The notes under the pieces were generated by a model. It worked only from the letters and a program-made list of their open reading frames with translations. It was not told the DNA's origin and searched no databases. From the IMG/VR virus record IMGVR_UViG_3300038759_000120, positions 1 to 46,653 of that record: DNA of 46,653 nt; one strand, written 5' to 3'. Within the stretch, counting starts at the first letter, position 1. Each line of letters opens with the position of its first letter. The position numbers and the translations under genes are program-made. Origin of the DNA: a virus. Positions 5,161-41,339 of this stretch are shown piece by piece.

Positions 5161-5181
5161 ATTAAATAAGTGAGTGCGAAA

Positions 5182-5271
5182 ATGCCAGATTTACAAGCAA
5201 TAATTATTACAATAGTTTTAGTGTGTGGCCTTTGTTATTTACTATACAAAGACCACGTTAGTAATGATTAA
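5182..5271 (+). CDS. 29-aa single-span membrane peptide
   Basis: ATG 5182 to TAA 5271 encodes a peptide with one hydrophobic helix (AIIITIVLVCGLCYLLY) and a charged end. It is the only ORF between a strong promoter (5119) and the convergent tail-fibre gene, whose stop is one base away. The ribosome-binding site is weak (GAGTG). Having its own regulated promoter favours a real product; the transcript may also run antisense into the fibre gene. Confidence 0.5.
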   Translation: MPDLQAIIITIVLVCGLCYLLYKDHVSND

Positions 5272-5272
5272 C

Positions 5273-7489
5273 CTATCTATTAGTATTTACTGGGGGTACT
5301 ACTGGTGTACCACTAACCGTAACCGTGGAGCGTTTTTCAACTAGGAACGCTGTAGCACCAGACGATAAAGTTAGTGTTGAACTATCAACCAACTGCTCAG
5401 TTTTTGTGATTGACACATCGCCAGTTATTAACATCCCAACAGCGCCAGCGCCATAATCTCCACGATGAGAAACCCTGTTGCATTGGCCTGTTACAGCGTT
5501 CATGTATACGCCGTAACCTGTTGCCCCCCTGCTCGTTGCAGTAACATCGACTGATAGTGACAAATCTACCAACTCAATACTGGTAAGGTATGCTAATGAT
5601 TTTCCAGATGTACCAGTAGGCGTACCGGGTATCACAAAATTTGATTCTATCTCTAATGTGCCCCTCAACTTTCCGCCACCAGAAGATGAAGTAGTGAATA
5701 TACTGTGATTAGTCTCAACACCATTGTCACCAGATACGCGCTTAATTTTCGTGTGCCCTAGTGAAACATCTACAAGGTTGTCGGATATGCTCATAGTAAC
5801 GCGCCCATCTGTCTCTATGTCAGCATTCACTATTTCAGCTTGAGAACCAAGGCTGTAGTGAGCACCCGCTACAGTAGTACCAAGTATGTTTGCTGATATG
5901 TTATTAACACTTATTGCACCGTATACCAACTCAACGCGCCCGCTACATAAGATGTCTTTAACCGAGCCGCGACCAGTGTTAGCACTAGTAGAGCTTACGG
6001 CTATAGTAAAATTATCCAGTATATTGCCAGATGAACAGTTTTCTTGGTCATCAAATATGACACCCGTACCTTGCGCTAAATTGGTTTCAAAATCACCAAG
6101 ACCAGTTACATTACCTACCGAGCAACCCTTAGCCTTATCGCCTACAGCACCAAACCTAACTGCTTGTGAGCCGAAGCCGTCAAAAATATCCCCAGCGGTG
6201 TTATTATCCCCCTTAAACCAACAAACCCTGTCGCCGTAACCTACGCCTACGATGTTACCAAACTTCCAACTGTCAGTTGTTCCTAAGCACTCAACAACTG
6301 AGTGCATTGGTAGTGATGGGTCTAAGTTGTAAGCTGTTACATTACCAACAGTAACGTTACCAAAACTAGAACCTTTAACTAATCTTTTAGCTACGTTTCT
6401 ACCTGTAACATCACCTATGGTCACATCAAATTTTTCAGTTGTTGGGGTTTCAGCAAAACCACGTATTAAGTCAGCGTCTTGTACAACACCTAAACCACCG
6501 TCAACTGTTTTTATCGTGTCACCATAAACATTTCCAATCTTTCCGTATGATTTACCGTGTACTACATCAGCGTCCCTACCAACCAAATACAATCCCCCAA
6601 CGAAACCTTTACCGGTAACGGAGCCGTCGTCATCTTGGGTAATGTTTATAAATCTTTGGTCGCCGATTTGAAAGTTAGGGCACCCATACATAGGTAAATA
6701 TAGTGGGTATGTTTGAAACGCGCTGATACCGTGGAAGTTACGCCATTCCATATCACCTATTTTTATATTTTCCGCTGGTAAATTAGTCGGGGTGAAAGGT
6801 GTGCTTGTGTGGTCATTATTATCACCATCCACTATAAAACCGCCTATGTAACAGTTACCATCAATAGTACCTATCGCAACAGAGTGATCGCAAAGTAAAG
6901 TTGTATTGCGACCGAAAAACTTAGTCTCATTTGACAGATTGAATGAGTCGGCTACTCTATAAGTCTCGCCGCTTTTGAAGTTTATAGAATAACCTGATGA
7001 AGATAAGTATTGAATTACGGGTGCGTTATCAAAAACCCCGTCAGCTAAACCGCCGAAATTTTCTATTTCATTAGTATCTTTAAGTACAGCGGTGTTACCG
7101 CCACCCGCGTCAATTATGTCAAAACCATTTGCAGCGCCTCCACTAACAACTTCAAAGTTTGAGTTGTTTCTATCCTTTACAATGACAGTGGCACCGATTT
7201 TGTATTTACCAGACGCAACTTCTGAAACCGTAGTGTAAATACTAGTTATATTTTTTAACGCTTCTAATCGCTGTGAAGATTGCACAGTGTCAGGTAAACC
7301 GTTAGGTGTGATACCAGCCTCGTCAAGTAGTGCGTCGGTGAAACCGAGCATGTCGTTACCCCACGATGCGTCTAGTGGTGTACCGTCTTTAGCGCCCGGT
7401 ACCGATTCGTTCTTAATCGAACCGTATGGGTAGTCTGCGTCCGCTGGGTTCGCTCGCGGTGAGAATTTCTCAAAAATTTTAAGTGCCAT
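5273..7489 (-). CDS. Tail fibre / tailspike protein
   Basis: 738 aa, last gene of the baseplate operon. The N-terminus (FSPRANPADADYPYGSIKNESVPGAKDGT) is the short virion-attachment domain common at the start of phage tail fibres. From about residue 140 (ENFGGLADGVFDNAPVIQYL) the sequence has the repetitive Gly/Asn/Val pattern of a right-handed beta-helix of the pectate-lyase type, as in receptor-binding or depolymerase spikes. No catalytic site can be assigned by eye. The central and C-terminal coding DNA is poor in CG dinucleotides, unlike the flanking baseplate genes, which suggests exchange of the receptor-binding part. Confidence 0.8.
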   Translation of the reverse strand: MALKIFEKFSPRANPADADYPYGSIKNESVPGAKDGTPLDASWGNDMLGFTDALLDEAGITPNGLPDTVQSSQRLEALKNITSIYTTVSEVASGKYKIGATVIVKDRNNSNFEVVSGGAANGFDIIDAGGGNTAVLKDTNEIENFGGLADGVFDNAPVIQYLSSSGYSINFKSGETYRVADSFNLSNETKFFGRNTTLLCDHSVAIGTIDGNCYIGGFIVDGDNNDHTSTPFTPTNLPAENIKIGDMEWRNFHGISAFQTYPLYLPMYGCPNFQIGDQRFINITQDDDGSVTGKGFVGGLYLVGRDADVVHGKSYGKIGNVYGDTIKTVDGGLGVVQDADLIRGFAETPTTEKFDVTIGDVTGRNVAKRLVKGSSFGNVTVGNVTAYNLDPSLPMHSVVECLGTTDSWKFGNIVGVGYGDRVCWFKGDNNTAGDIFDGFGSQAVRFGAVGDKAKGCSVGNVTGLGDFETNLAQGTGVIFDDQENCSSGNILDNFTIAVSSTSANTGRGSVKDILCSGRVELVYGAISVNNISANILGTTVAGAHYSLGSQAEIVNADIETDGRVTMSISDNLVDVSLGHTKIKRVSGDNGVETNHSIFTTSSSGGGKLRGTLEIESNFVIPGTPTGTSGKSLAYLTSIELVDLSLSVDVTATSRGATGYGVYMNAVTGQCNRVSHRGDYGAGAVGMLITGDVSITKTEQLVDSSTLTLSSGATAFLVEKRSTVTVSGTPVVPPVNTNR

Positions 7490-25296: not shown

Positions 25297-26397
25297 TTAT
25301 TTCTCCTGCCAAGCGTTTTGTAATTTCGCACAATGTGCGTCGTATGCTGAGACTTTAGCCTCGGCTGGTTTCTGTACGTTAGCCGCATCTTGTGCAAGTA
25401 ACGCGTGTTGTTCAGTCGGCTTGTGTGCTGGGGTCGCTTCGGCGTCCGCAACGGCCATATCGAAAGCGGCTTGTACATACGCTTCGGCTTTTTCAGACCA
25501 GTCGATTGAATCACGTACTAGCGTAAGCGCTTCACGTTGAATCGTTAATGTGTCCACACTTTCACATGTGAATTTATCACCCGCAACTTTACGCGCTTGA
25601 GCTTGTACGCTCGCAACGTCTGCAACGCGCTTGGCGATTGCTTCGTCGCTTGTAGCTAGTTCAGCGACTGTAAGTTTCTCGGCGATAGTATCACGCTCTG
25701 CGGTCGCTGCGTCGATAGCGGCTTGAGCATCGGTGACTTGTTTTTCTAATCGTGCAATCGAATCTGTAACGAGTGCGGCAACCGCAGCGTCTTCAATCTC
25801 GATTGAGCGACCAGCGTCAAGTGTTACCTTGTTCATGGTTTTTACTCCGTGGTTGTCATTGATACGAACTTGATCCCCACCGCGTCCACGCTTAACAATC
25901 GCGACGTGGTTTACATCAATTCCGGTTTGTTTAAAATCGTAAGCAGTACCACAAGGCGCTACACCTTGCTCGGCTTTGTACACAGCTGTGTAACCTGGCG
26001 ATAGTTGAGACTTTCCGCTCTCAATATCACGAATCGCGTCGTCTGCTTTAATAATCATATCCACATTGACGAAATCACCGTCCTGTGTCGCACTGATAAC
26101 GTGACCCACACTTGTGGCTTTGTACGACTTAGAGTCTACCATAGCGGTCGGGTGGTCGTTCGTTACGTCTACGTTTTCATATGATGAGAGCGAATCGGTG
26201 TTAAATACTTCTTCGGCTGGGCGGTACACGTTCACAATGTCATTCGGTGCGCGGTCGGTTAACTCTAACTCGCTCGCAAGGTATTGATAAACACCTGTAC
26301 GGGCGGCACGACCTTTAACACGCAAAAAACCGTTATCCGTATAAGTACGTGATGACGGTGCGAAATCGAACGTGTCTGTGATATGTAAATGTTTCAA
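25297..26397 (-). CDS. Prohead protease with scaffold domain, DUF2213 family
   Basis: 366 aa. Begins with TTG at 26397, nine bases after AGAGGA. Protease domain about residues 1-185: H82 in NDHP and S130/S133 in GKSQLSPGY are the likely catalytic positions of this serine-protease family. A linker and a coiled-coil scaffold follow from about residue 205 (SIARLEKQVTDAQAAIDAATAERDTIAEKL in part). It matures and shapes the prohead. Own promoter at 26427-26456. Confidence 0.85.
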   Translation of the reverse strand: MKHLHITDTFDFAPSSRTYTDNGFLRVKGRAARTGVYQYLASELELTDRAPNDIVNVYRPAEEVFNTDSLSSYENVDVTNDHPTAMVDSKSYKATSVGHVISATQDGDFVNVDMIIKADDAIRDIESGKSQLSPGYTAVYKAEQGVAPCGTAYDFKQTGIDVNHVAIVKRGRGGDQVRINDNHGVKTMNKVTLDAGRSIEIEDAAVAALVTDSIARLEKQVTDAQAAIDAATAERDTIAEKLTVAELATSDEAIAKRVADVASVQAQARKVAGDKFTCESVDTLTIQREALTLVRDSIDWSEKAEAYVQAAFDMAVADAEATPAHKPTEQHALLAQDAANVQKPAEAKVSAYDAHCAKLQNAWQEK

Positions 26398-26515: not shown

Positions 26516-27226
26516 ATGAGTATGAACAGTCTAGAATTTATTAAACAACACGTTACGGAATGGCCTAGTGGTGAATACCACACTGTACTGTTATATAGTA
26601 ATGGGTTTGCGGTATTCGCCAATAGTTTCAAACCAGGAATGGGTGTCCACTCAATAGACCTGACCGAACATTTCGCACCGAGTTACTACGACGGCAAAGT
26701 CTGGACACGCGAAGAGTTTGAAGCGTGTGGGGTTGTTGAGTATCGTTACAATGATGGGTGCGCTAACCCACTGTTAAAACGTGAGGGTGGTAAATATTTC
26801 TATAATTCCGAGGGTGATTGGTGTGAATATAACATTCTACCTGCGTCACATTGGGAACACGCTGTTAAAATCAGTGATAGTATGGTGGTTAATCATCTTA
26901 AAAAACCTTTCTCAAAACGTAAAGATGGGTCGTTCGATGCGACTGAAATTGAGATGGTTAATGGTATCGACGCTACAGTCGAAGAGCGTGGAAATCGTTA
27001 TGGTGCATTTAAAGACGGTGCGGATATTATGCAAGAGCTTAAAAGCGTGATGCGCTCGACACCAAACTGGTCACAACTAACACCGTCACAACGCGAAGCG
27101 CTTGAAATGATACAGCACAAAGTGGGACGCATTTTAAACGGTGATCCAAATTACACAGATTCGTGGCATGATATTAAAGGTTACGCACATCTAATCGAAG
27201 AGGAGTTAAACGGAAATGCAAAGTAA
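26516..27226 (+). CDS. Phage protein with C-terminal DUF6378 domain
   Basis: 236 aa. The C-terminal 80 residues ([21 protein letters not shown]...[44 protein letters not shown], in parts) match the DUF6378 phage domain, an all-helical domain with MazG-like appearance. The N-terminal ~145 residues ([17 protein letters not shown]...) are beta-rich and often occur alone in phages. First gene of the DfrB-like operon, overlapping the next gene by 11 bases. A role in nucleotide metabolism is inferred from the neighbours. Confidence 0.72.
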
Positions 27227-27413
27227 TATACACAACATATTCGCTATGGGTGACGTAGTACGTAAAAAAAGCGGTTCGGAGTGGGAAGGCGTTATCGTGG
27301 GTTTCTACTCAACGAGCTTAACACCTGAAGGTTACGCCGTAGAAAGCTCATCACACGCAGGGTCTGTACAGATTTACCCAGCTAAAGCACTTGAGGCGGT
27401 GACACATGCTTGA
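27216..27413 (+). CDS. R67-type (DfrB) dihydrofolate reductase homologue
   Basis: 65 aa, close to plasmid type II DHFR over the whole SH3-like barrel: [30 protein letters not shown] and [12 protein letters not shown]. Residues that build the R67 active site are all kept: K17 (R67 K32), V51-Q52-I53-Y54 (R67 VQIY 66-69) and W23 (R67 W38). R67 is a homotetramer reducing dihydrofolate with NADPH and is naturally insensitive to trimethoprim. The N-terminus is shorter than in R67 but its disordered tail is dispensable there. Operon with a DUF6378 protein. It would support thymidylate supply. Activity is inference. Confidence 0.85.
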
Positions 27414-27552
27414 CCCTGAATGGTACGTAAAGAAACGCGACGAAATGTATCGCGCTTATCAAGCGGCTTTAGAAATGGAAGAACTAGACGAAGCTGAACG
27501 GTTGTTCAAAGAGTACGAAAACTACTCGAAGCAGTGTGGGGGTGTGTCGTGA
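27406..27552 (+). CDS. Small helical protein, 48 aa
   Basis: ATG 27406 overlaps the end of the DfrB-like gene and its TGA overlaps the next start. Charged amphipathic helix ([39 protein letters not shown] in part). Unknown function; coupled translation within the operon. Confidence 0.6.
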
Positions 27553-27779
27553 TACGCTACTACCATAAAGACAGGTTCTTAGGTTACGGTGTGGGTATAA
27601 ACCCTTTGACCGGCTCTATAGTGTTAGTAACTGACGACAACGAATACAAAGCGTTTCACCGTGAACAAATCACACATCATGTCGTGGGTGAAACAGTACT
27701 AGATGATAGGGTTAAACAACCTAACCGCGATAAGACCGAAAAATACTTCGAGTTACCTTACCCTTTACCGCTATCTTAA
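27549..27779 (+). CDS. Hypothetical protein, 76 aa
   Basis: GTG 27549 overlaps the preceding stop (GTGA) after GTGGGGGTG; a longer ORF from GTG 27534 is less likely. Begins [27 protein letters not shown], a beta-rich SH3-like pattern. The 3' end overlaps the convergent MuF-like gene by nine bases. Unrecognised. Confidence 0.6.
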   Translation: MIRYYHKDRFLGYGVGINPLTGSIVLVTDDNEYKAFHREQITHHVVGETVLDDRVKQPNRDKTEKYFELPYPLPLS

Positions 27780-28667
27780 CACACCCTTACGGACGCGACC
27801 CGCTCGGATATTCGCGTCCACCTCTTCCTGACTCACTGGTCGACCTATGCACCTACACTGAAAGTCTTGCCCTGGGATTATCGGAACACCACGGTCGCTC
27901 AACGGCGGGTTATCCCAACGGTATATCCCCTTCCCGTATGCTGTAACCTTGTCGTTAATGTCAGCGTGTCTATCACGTACACGTTCATCACCACTATCAG
28001 TCCACTCAAAGTACGGAAAGCCCGCAGCGGTTTGACGCTTAGCGTTTAAGTCACCATTCACCTTTGCGGTCTGGTCACGCGCGATAAGTTTAGCGCGACG
28101 CTCCGTAACGCCGAATTGTTCCTGTAGTAACTTAGCGATTGCGCTCGGTCTACCTCCCGCCCGTAAATTCGTCATCACGATACTGTCAACTTGTGTCAAG
28201 TATTGCGCCGGTATCGATTCGATTAAACGCACATTATCGTATATCGACGCCTGTACGTAGTCGCGCAACTCTGAGTTATCGACGAATATATCAATTCCTA
28301 AATCACGCTTCGTACGTTCAGCGTTTGTATTGTTGGCCGTCGTAACGAACTTACGCGCGATACGAGTCGCAAGCGCGTTAAACTGTGGACTTGACCAGCG
28401 CTCCCGAACGAGTTTTAACGCTCCTGCAATAACGTCAACGTACGAGTCGAGCGTAACCAGTGTCGATACACCGTCCGCGGTATACTCAAAACTTGTCGAC
28501 TTAACAGCGCCCATAATGTACGTATCGATGTCTTTACGCACTTCACGCACGATACGGCGTAACTCTGTTTGGTACGTTGCGCCCGCTTGTAAGTCTTGCT
28601 TAACACCTTTAGGTTTGCGGCGCTTGCTGGTGGCTAGTTGTTGCTGTAATAATTCGGCGCTCGTCAT
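27771..28667 (-). CDS. Head morphogenesis protein, Mu F / SPP1 gp7-like
   Basis: 298 aa from the ATG at 28667 (MTSAELLQQQLATSKRRKPKG); the ORF upstream contains the promoter. The MuF domain is clear: LIARDQTAKVNGDLNAKRQTAAGFPYFEWTDSGDERVRDRHADIN (in part) and the C-terminal PGQDFQCRC. This minor head protein is ejected or assists assembly next to the portal. Encoded between portal and protease genes as usual. Confidence 0.85.
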   Translation of the reverse strand: MTSAELLQQQLATSKRRKPKGVKQDLQAGATYQTELRRIVREVRKDIDTYIMGAVKSTSFEYTADGVSTLVTLDSYVDVIAGALKLVRERWSSPQFNALATRIARKFVTTANNTNAERTKRDLGIDIFVDNSELRDYVQASIYDNVRLIESIPAQYLTQVDSIVMTNLRAGGRPSAIAKLLQEQFGVTERRAKLIARDQTAKVNGDLNAKRQTAAGFPYFEWTDSGDERVRDRHADINDKVTAYGKGIYRWDNPPLSDRGVPIIPGQDFQCRCIGRPVSQEEVDANIRAGRVRKGVLR

Positions 28668-28696
28668 GTTGCTGCTCGGTTCGTGGATATATTCAC

Positions 28697-28705
28697 AGTA
28701 TAACA
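28697..28705 (-). promoter_or_regulatory. Late promoter before the MuF-like gene, extended -10
   Basis: Minus strand TGTTATACT with -10 at 28702-28697; leader about 25 nt to the ATG at 28667. Confidence 0.65.
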
Positions 28706-28734
28706 AATTAATTTGAGTTTTTTAATATTATTAG

Positions 28735-38962: not shown

Positions 38963-39259
38963 CTACGACACTCCCAGCGCGCGACACGCTATATATTGTC
39001 CCTCGTCTTGCCTAACTTCAGGCAGTTTAGCGATTTCAGTCAGAGCATTTTCAAGCTCCTCTACACGTCGCTCAGCATCCACAAGTTTTTGACAAGGTGT
39101 TAAACCGTCTACTTTCTGCATTGTAACAACGAACGATTTTGAAGGGTCGTCGTTACAACCGAAAGTTTGTTCAATGTAGTTAACAGCACCCGAACCCTCG
39201 AAGAAATCGAGAAGCTTATCGGCCATAGCGTGTATTACGTTTTCGTGTTCATTACTCAT
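38963..39259 (-). CDS. Hypothetical protein, 98 aa
   Basis: ATG 39259 nine bases after GGGAG, inside the end of the TetR-like gene. A coiled coil (CQKLVDAERRVEELENALTEIAKLPE) and the ending YIACRALGVS, a pattern seen in many small phage proteins. Function unknown; sits one base before the primase-helicase gene. Confidence 0.65.
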   Translation of the reverse strand: MSNEHENVIHAMADKLLDFFEGSGAVNYIEQTFGCNDDPSKSFVVTMQKVDGLTPCQKLVDAERRVEELENALTEIAKLPEVRQDEGQYIACRALGVS

Positions 39260-39590
39260 CGTCTTCGCTCCCACCGTTGCTGATCAACCAATCCATTGCT
39301 TGACGCTTTAACGTGTCATCAGCACCGTGAGCGATACGACAACCCGACGCGATACCGTGAGCGATGATAGGTAACTCGGCGCGGTGTATCGCTGCGCGCA
39401 TAACGGCACGGTGTAACTGATTCATAGTGTTAAACACTTTACTCACTAAACCTGTGGAAATACCACCTTGCTCGGCGATACGTTCACGTGTTACAGCGTC
39501 GTAACCCTGTTTAATAGCTATATCCATCGCAACACCTAAGATGTGCTCGCGACGTGCTTCTGGTTTCATTCTTGTTCTACGGTCTGACAT
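39252..39590 (-). CDS. Short TetR-family transcriptional regulator
   Basis: 112 aa. Residues 13-58 (REHILGVAMDIAIKQGYDAVTRERIAEQGGISTGLVSKVF in part, then the YxH-like FNTMNQLHRAVMRAAI) are a standard TetR helix-turn-helix. The usual ligand-binding domain is missing; only about 50 residues follow. AGAGAG precedes the ATG. Its promoter contains two perfect TGAC-N6-GTCA operators, so autoregulation is likely, and the same operator stands at most other non-structural promoters. Probably the global regulator of early phage genes. Confidence 0.8.
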   Translation of the reverse strand: MSDRRTRMKPEARREHILGVAMDIAIKQGYDAVTRERIAEQGGISTGLVSKVFNTMNQLHRAVMRAAIHRAELPIIAHGIASGCRIAHGADDTLKRQAMDWLISNGGSEDDE

Positions 39591-39823: not shown

Positions 39824-40296
39824 AGTGACCCCACATCATTACAAAAACACGCGTCGCCGCCAAGCGACACGACGAACTCAAGGCAACGCAACTGTGCAAT
39901 TTCGTGTTCAGTGGCAGTATACTTCCAGTTAGCTCGTTTAACCTCACGCATTACGAATTGACCTATAGTACAACCGACCATTTCTTGTGTGATTAACACA
40001 GGACGTATACCGATAAGATCACCAGACTTAATATGTTCGTTCATCTTTTTAGAGTCGTTCATCCAACCGTAACGTATTTGTCTACCGTTTTTATCTTCAC
40101 AAGCACCAACCTGATTACGGTAGAGCCTAACACCAACGTGACTAGCCTCAAGACGTACAGCGTTCAACACAGCCGCTTCGCTCGCACCGGTCATAGAGTG
40201 CGGTACGTCCGTCGACTGTGTGAATAACTGTTGCAACTCTTCGAGTGCTTCGGGCGTTACGCCGTGACGCTTCGCCCATTCGTTAAGGTGTATCAT
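39820..40296 (-). CDS. VRR-NUC domain nuclease
   Basis: 158 aa PD-(D/E)XK nuclease of the VRR-NUC type. Active-site pattern: E40 in GASEAAVL, D93 in SGDLIG, E118-x-K120 in MREVKR, then a helix with an Arg/Leu-rich pattern (AQLRCLEFVVSLGGDACF). Such proteins go with phage helicases in recombination or Holliday-junction processing. It overlaps the PAPS-like gene by four bases. Confidence 0.82.
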   Translation of the reverse strand: MIHLNEWAKRHGVTPEALEELQQLFTQSTDVPHSMTGASEAAVLNAVRLEASHVGVRLYRNQVGACEDKNGRQIRYGWMNDSKKMNEHIKSGDLIGIRPVLITQEMVGCTIGQFVMREVKRANWKYTATEHEIAQLRCLEFVVSLGGDACFCNDVGSL

Positions 40297-41306
40297 GATA
40301 AATCTCCAAAAGCTTCACATGACTCTGAACACGAGTTGGTTTCAACCATGTGACCACCACGTATACGCGCTTTAATCTCTTCGCCTGTTGAACCGTCAAA
40401 AGTAGCTATCACCTGCCCTATGGAACGTTTTTTTCTATAACCTCGATGATTATCGTGAGTGTCCCTGACTGTAGCGTTATTTACAAGTTGTAACCAGTCT
40501 TGGTACATTTCCGGTTCGTCCTTCGCTGCAGCTGCGAGTTTTAGGTCTGATTTTTTGAAGCAGTATACACAATTACCGCACCACTCAGGTATCTCTAGGT
40601 CGAAAGGCATTTTAGACCAATGTTCCATTACGTCAGATTTATCCATGTCTGTTATTTCAGCCATGTAATGAATGTTGCGGTCTATAGTTACTTTGTAATA
40701 CCTTTGAATCATTAACCTGGCTAGATAAACATTACCTTCTACCAACTTTGAAACATTCTCAACAGTGATTAAGGTGTCACCCATCTGACGCCACTTATCT
40801 ATAATATCTATATCATCCATACCCATGTTTTTCATTATCTTAACTATGGAATGTTTACTTTTTTTAGGGTTTCCCCATATCCTCAGAGGTTCATCCGAAC
40901 GCATACCTAACCATGTTTCGTAGTTATGCTCCCCGTAAGTATCGTTACAATATTTATCGTGCACGTCCTCTTTCATTCGAGACGTACACCAACCGTTGCC
41001 GATACCAGGCATCCCGTACTTTTTAACAAGTTCACCGTACACTTTTAAATCGTATTTCAAATCTTCCACGGGTATTATCTTATATGTGTGGCCTTCACCT
41101 AGAGGCTGATTAAAATCACCTTGTAAACAAGTCAAGTTGAGGTCGAAATAAAGATCGCAAAACTTGATGAACTCGTATGTCTTAGGGTGCTCAGCACCCG
41201 TATCCATGTAAATAAAATCTAAGTTATCCCTTCCGAATTTAGAAATCATCTCTACGGCCATACATATACTTGTACGACCTCCACTGACATTTACGGTTTT
41301 TTTCAT
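40293..41306 (-). CDS. PAPS-reductase-like / N-type ATP-pyrophosphatase protein
   Basis: 337 aa from ATG 41306 (MKKTVNVSGGRTSICMA), eight bases after GGGAG. PP-loop SGGRTS (8-13), then FIYMDTGAEHPKTYEF and GNGWCTSRMK, as in the PAPS reductase/sulfurylase fold. A Cys pair WCGNCVYCF near residue 258 and a C-terminal cysteine cluster (NSCSESCEAF) suggest a metal or Fe-S site. Phage members lie beside replication genes; their substrate is not established. DNA here has fewer CG dinucleotides than the genes on both sides. Confidence 0.75.
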   Translation of the reverse strand: MKKTVNVSGGRTSICMAVEMISKFGRDNLDFIYMDTGAEHPKTYEFIKFCDLYFDLNLTCLQGDFNQPLGEGHTYKIIPVEDLKYDLKVYGELVKKYGMPGIGNGWCTSRMKEDVHDKYCNDTYGEHNYETWLGMRSDEPLRIWGNPKKSKHSIVKIMKNMGMDDIDIIDKWRQMGDTLITVENVSKLVEGNVYLARLMIQRYYKVTIDRNIHYMAEITDMDKSDVMEHWSKMPFDLEIPEWCGNCVYCFKKSDLKLAAAAKDEPEMYQDWLQLVNNATVRDTHDNHRGYRKKRSIGQVIATFDGSTGEEIKARIRGGHMVETNSCSESCEAFGDLS

Positions 41307-41339
41307 CGTAACTCCCGTTAAACTGACCAAAACGTCACT

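Follow-up and report, generated by a model that had tools for sequence, protein, structure and literature searches.

The window analysed here, i.e. the whole IMG/VR virus record IMGVR_UViG_3300038759_000120 (46,653 bases, a tailed phage), encodes a 65-aa protein that is a full-barrel homologue of the R67/DfrB dihydrofolate reductases by sequence, motif and fold. The gene is a stand-alone phage dfrB, which probably specifies an NADPH-dependent dihydropterin/dihydrofolate reductase and is carried as optional cargo in an antisense cassette. This explanation is based on the family assignment, the fold of the monomer, the near-invariant pore residues, the purifying selection acting on the family, the single-gene insertion of dfrB and the linkage to pterin genes in a different phage lineage. 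The overlap of dfrB with FolE, QueD and QueE genes in that lineage is new and provides the first genomic hint that we found of a pathway for DfrB.

The dfrB open reading frame begins with ATG and ends with TGA. Comparison of its product with the Pfam family DHFR_2 (PF06442) gave a score of 93.9 bits (E=5.4e-27; cut-off 25), the match covering positions 22–77 of the 78 in the profile, and the phmmer search of the PDB matched residues 8–62 to R67 dihydrofolate reductase (1vie, E=8e-22). The AlphaFold2 model of the monomer (pLDDT 87.8) superimposes on seven R67 entries in the PDB with an rmsd of 0.5–0.7 A and TM-scores of 0.81–0.87, and over the barrel the protein is 74% identical to DfrB4 and about 70% identical to DfrB1/R67. 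K17, W23 and V51-Q52-I53-Y54 correspond to K32, W38 and V66–Y69 of R67. Three of the features by which membership of the DfrB family is judged, namely a PF06442 score above the cut-off, the VQIY motif together with K32 and W38, and an SH3-like barrel fold (in the AlphaFold2 model), are found in this protein. The preliminary description had recognized it as an R67-type enzyme aligning over the whole barrel and had placed the active-site residues at these same positions, and both assignments are borne out. The score against the NCBI resistance family NF000331 (trim_DfrB, a 78-residue resistance protein) is 104.4 bits, under the cut-off of 137 bits, and therefore the gene is not filed as a named resistance gene. 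The matching family in PHROGs (PHROG 31682) has no assigned function, so that phage annotation pipelines based on it will miss DfrB. An assembly artefact was rejected, since the locus recurs in another IMG/VR contig (L002 = L087), with 100% identity for every cassette gene.

Four overlapping genes on the + strand (26516–27779), dfrB among them, are placed within the head-gene module, between the – strand genes for the head maturation protease and the head morphogenesis protein (Table 1). The upstream gene overlaps the start of dfrB by 11 nt. In the close relatives L088/L115 (head protein 95% identical) and also in L114, all without dfrB, the stop of the upstream gene overlaps the start of orf48 directly, and an identical GAGGAG ribosome-binding site precedes orf48; in the window, dfrB is placed exactly between these two genes, as a clean single-gene insertion. 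In L133 the slot held by dfrB in the window is occupied by a DUF4406 gene. Because dfrB is inserted cleanly and relatives have DUF4406 or nothing at this place, we regard it as a cargo slot and dfrB as optional for this type of phage. Swapping of single genes (dfrB, DUF4406, nothing) among close relatives is seen across L114, L115, L119, L133 and L134, and the C-terminal half of the upstream gene is also swapped among close relatives (DUF6378-like or other). Neither type of gene qualifies as a general partner of dfrB: the DUF6378-like gene is near dfrB only at the window's own locus (second contig L002), and a DUF4406 gene was found near dfrB once (L084), in a non-adjacent position. The phage copy had been described as regulated; in the cassette region, matches resembling promoters or terminators did not rise above those in shuffled sequences, the Rfam search of the window gave no match, and what is visible is the GAGGAG site and the 11-nt overlap. 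We found no evidence of dedicated regulation of dfrB.

Table 1. Coordinates of dfrB, its cassette and other features of the window
Feature	Position	Strand	Basis
DfrB/R67-type dihydrofolate reductase homologue, 65 aa	27216..27413	+	PF06442 E=5.4e-27; 1vie E=8e-22; fold 0.5-0.7 A from R67
GAGGAG ribosome-binding site of dfrB, within upstream gene; before orf48 in relatives without dfrB	27200..27205	+	sequence
Upstream gene (236 aa) with a DUF6378-like domain at its C-terminus (24.7 bits, under Pfam cut-off 27.1)	26516..27226	+	
Downstream gene orf48, sharing 8 nt with the end of dfrB; conserved in relatives	27406..27552	+	
Final gene of antisense cassette, 81 aa, no family	27534..27779	+	
Flanking head maturation protease (phrog_530)	25297..26397	-	
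Flanking head morphogenesis protein (phrog_324)	27771..28706	-	
Non-coding stretch (about 90 nt) beside tail-fibre-like gene	5170..5275	-	
Tail-fibre-like gene	5273..7489		
TetR-type DNA-binding domain protein	39255..39590	-	
PAPS-reductase-like PP-loop protein of phage	40293..41330	-	

The terminase of the window phage has its nearest counterpart in Pantoea phage PA-1 (68.6%), with Aaphi23 and S1249 as more distant relatives, and the window as a whole has almost no nucleotide similarity to isolate phages. The non-coding stretch beside the tail-fibre-like gene exhibits 86–94% identity to four otherwise unrelated Pseudoalteromonas phages (H101, AL, J2-1 and BS5) and matches no other phage of the collection; an 11-bp hairpin can be formed in it (z about -1.9). 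Such a sequence match hints at Pseudoalteromonas as the host genus, and the stretch is possibly an element shared among phages. The TetR-type protein lies in the phage replication region and is unusual for a phage of this size. Genes similar to that of the window's PAPS-reductase-like PP-loop protein lie close to dfrB in L057/L274 and Rhizobium phage RHph_N3_2.

According to the preliminary description DfrB was known mainly from integrons and plasmids, a view which is outdated. A plain tblastn search of INPHARED retrieved 26 phage records with a DfrB domain, many of them annotated as R67 or dihydrofolate reductase, from phages of Pseudomonas, Rhizobium, Sinorhizobium, Ochrobactrum, Vibrio, Aeromonas and Skermania, and pattern scans of IMG/VR found DfrB in at least 186 stretches. 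Four virome dfrB open reading frames (PMC7265639) and eight dfrB genes in lytic phages (PMC12466917) have been reported, and two phage copies have been cloned (PMC9835603): DfrB-H4 from a Vibrio phage conferred resistance to up to 600 ug/ml trimethoprim in E. coli, and no expression of DfrB-H3 from a Pseudomonas phage was visible, nor did it confer resistance, apparently because soluble expression was missing. Phage-borne DfrB is thus not new, and the window gene adds one clean phage member. In about 56 related temperate-phage contigs (L003–L051 and others) the DfrB barrel mostly occurs as C-terminal module in a variety of modular accessory proteins, encoded in the early region close to genes for integrase and recombinase.

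Among 138 unique domains K32, W38, G40, G44, Y46, T51, G54, P70 and L74 (R67 numbering) are 100% conserved, V66, Q67, I68 and Y69 99% and S65 98%, with neighbouring positions falling to about 30%; these counts are somewhat favourable, as the collection scans used motif patterns, some of which included VQIY. The INPHARED phages found by tblastn are free of this bias, and in that search distant homologues from Rhizobium, Skermania and Vibrio phages keep Q67 and Y69, while divergent homologues, including the Skermania phage copy with a loop insertion, keep K32, Q67 and Y69. Loss of VQIY in close homologues had been named as evidence against the assignment; the motif residues are invariant or almost so among relatives. 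The median dN/dS is 0.21 over 1088 close pairs, which are not independent of one another. Conservation of the pore residues points to a ligand-binding, probably catalytic pore and favours it over a generic SH3-like adaptor. In a tree of 54 columns R67/DfrB1 clusters with chromosomal copies from Ramlibacter, other Burkholderiales and Pseudomonas (support 0.96), apart from the window sequence. Judged by this tree, the clinical dfrB genes do not derive directly from the window gene, contrary to the suggestion that it is a possible reservoir of the resistance gene; the pool of phage copies may represent an old source of the DfrB family.

The analysis of genomic neighborhood revealed one repeated association. 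Stand-alone dfrB genes in freshwater phages neighbour GTP cyclohydrolase I (L080, E=4.6e-98) and QueD-like and QueE-like proteins, which score below the NCBI equivalog cut-offs with the QueD and QueE families still as their best matches. After dereplication of 80 dfrB loci to 51 clusters, dfrB abuts FolE in 3 clusters, QueD in 8, QueE in 3, and QueD together with QueE in 2, and lies within 450 nt of such a gene in 3 more. Of the 19 clusters in which a pterin gene adjoins dfrB or lies at most 450 nt away, dfrB abuts one in 16; of the other ORFs at these loci, 36 of 335 abut a pterin gene. On contigs longer than 40 kb dfrB does so in 10 of 12, against 0.6 expected for random placement. The gene order is QueD-ATGA-dfrB-ATGA-QueE in L244 and FolE-ATGA-dfrB in L263, 4-nt stop/start overlaps being frequent in this lineage. 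The 19 pterin-linked contigs represent a single broad lineage, in which dfrB occupies at least two different positions (behind FolE, and between QueD and QueE); most dfrB loci outside it (30 of the 51 clusters) have no pterin or folate neighbour. In the reverse direction dfrB is found within 4 kb of only 2 of the 80 nearest QueD loci, therefore the pathway does not need dfrB, which is an occasional member of such clusters. Overlap of dfrB with FolE, QueD or QueE genes was noted in the freshwater-phage loci L235–L272 and L294, and no QueC was detected among the dfrB records checked. Pfam scans of 188 neighbouring ORFs revealed no further gene that clearly recurred near dfrB; integrase, DNA polymerase A and a beta-solenoid family were each seen two to three times. 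In the established pathway the product of FolE is dihydroneopterin triphosphate, that of QueD 6-carboxy-tetrahydropterin and that of QueE 7-carboxy-7-deazaguanine. A dihydropterin- and NADPH-binding reductase would fit this pathway, e.g. by re-reducing an oxidised intermediate. We found no mention of the linkage in the DfrB literature searched or in the paper on phage 7-deazaguanine (PMC6884629).

The preliminary description suggested a role in viral thymidylate metabolism; by analogy with T4 frd, the protein would be a dihydrofolate reductase for phage thymidylate synthesis. A thymidylate synthase (2 ThyX, 5 ThyA) is indeed present in 7 of 38 DfrB-bearing viral records, including those of the large phages phiM9, RHph_N38, RHph_Y2_6 and ZX86, and the second neighbour scan placed one ThyA gene near dfrB. 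However, all five records with ThyA are about 66 kb or longer, and the presence of ThyA tracks genome size; mid-sized dfrB phages deposited as complete, e.g. PS-1 and RHph_N3_2, have neither ThyA nor ThyX, FolA is absent from all 47 DfrB-bearing records searched, and the only repeated neighbours of dfrB are the pterin genes. The window phage lacks ThyA, ThyX and FolA in a record that may be incomplete. The linkage to thymidylate synthesis is therefore partial, size-linked and absent in the window, and we consider such a role unlikely. A different suggestion (PMC9835603) is that DfrB serves mainly as a non-catalytic SH3-like module for binding or oligomerisation and that its reductase activity is adventitious. 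The C-terminal position of the barrel in the modular proteins of temperate phages agrees with this, as do the many neighbourhoods free of folate and pterin genes. Yet the pore-lining residues vary no more than those of the core, whether the barrel is stand-alone or fused, and such invariance is not required of a generic binder; the repeated overlaps with FolE, QueD and QueE also speak against this suggestion, and we doubt that binding is the main function. Capture of a trimethoprim-resistance gene from an integron or plasmid, for which the identity to DfrB4 and DfrB1 within the DfrB1–DfrB10 family could be cited, was rejected and appears very improbable: no integron or other resistance gene was seen around dfrB, its GC content (46%) matches that of the phage (45%), the NF000331 score falls below the resistance cut-off, and R67 clusters with bacterial chromosomal copies instead. 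Of the original interpretation, the family assignment and the active-site conservation stand; the view of DfrB as mainly an integron and plasmid protein is outdated, and regulation, a thymidylate role in this phage and a reservoir function of this gene are not supported.

For the preferred pterin/folate reductase, four 65-aa SH3-like barrels would most likely assemble around one central pore, where Q67, I68 and Y69 together with K32 would line the site at which a 7,8-dihydropterin (dihydrofolate or a related pterin) is reduced with NADPH. The window phage has no FolE, QueD or QueC; the substrate would therefore have to come from the host, and during infection DfrB would act on host-made dihydrofolate or dihydropterin, presumably to the benefit of the phage. 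DfrB enzymes confer extreme trimethoprim resistance; their insensitivity to the drug would be incidental to the unusual nature of the site. Arguing against this explanation are the lack of FolE, QueD, QueC, ThyA, ThyX and FolA in the window, the rarity of dfrB near QueD, the confinement of the linkage mostly to one lineage, the failure of DfrB-H3 to confer resistance, the missing long N-terminus that aids expression of R67, and the slowness of R67-type enzymes (kcat 0.2–0.4 per s, PMC9774602). The observations can tentatively be joined in a broader reading, which is possible rather than probable: DfrB proteins could natively be phage pterin reductases, the enzyme of the freshwater lineage, acting between FolE, QueD and QueE, would maintain 6-carboxy-tetrahydropterin (or its precursor) in the reduced state for the synthesis of 7-deazaguanine; the dfrB resistance genes of integrons could have arisen from such an old family of pterin reductases, and in the window phage a stray copy could act on the pterin/folate pool of the host. 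The natural role of DfrB is called unknown or only 'metabolic' in the DfrB papers examined, and owing to the overlap with pterin genes its function prior to trimethoprim can be tested directly, using purified proteins together with pterin substrates.

Compared with R67/DfrB1 (PDB 1VIE, 2RK1; PF06442), the window protein shares the whole SH3-like barrel, but has 8 residues instead of 23 before it and F30 at the position of W45; R67 resides in an integron and the window gene in a phage accessory cassette. The N-terminus of R67 helps expression and is dispensable for activity once the protein is made, and W45 is replaceable (PMC9835603). DfrB-H4 and DfrB-H3 are likewise phage-encoded barrels with VQIY, K32 and W38, but they are embedded in longer proteins, whereas the window encodes a bare barrel in another type of phage. 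The environmental DfrB12–DfrB21 (PMC9774602) are also stand-alone proteins from outside drug contexts, with 62–95% identity to known ones, but were assigned to Proteobacteria, and that paper does not mention phages. The dfrB genes of freshwater phages (L067, L244, L263 and others) belong to the same family (about 75% identity) and also encode bare barrels of about 60 aa in genes that overlap their neighbours; they reside among pterin/7-deazaguanine genes, whereas the window copy resides between the DUF6378-like gene and orf48.
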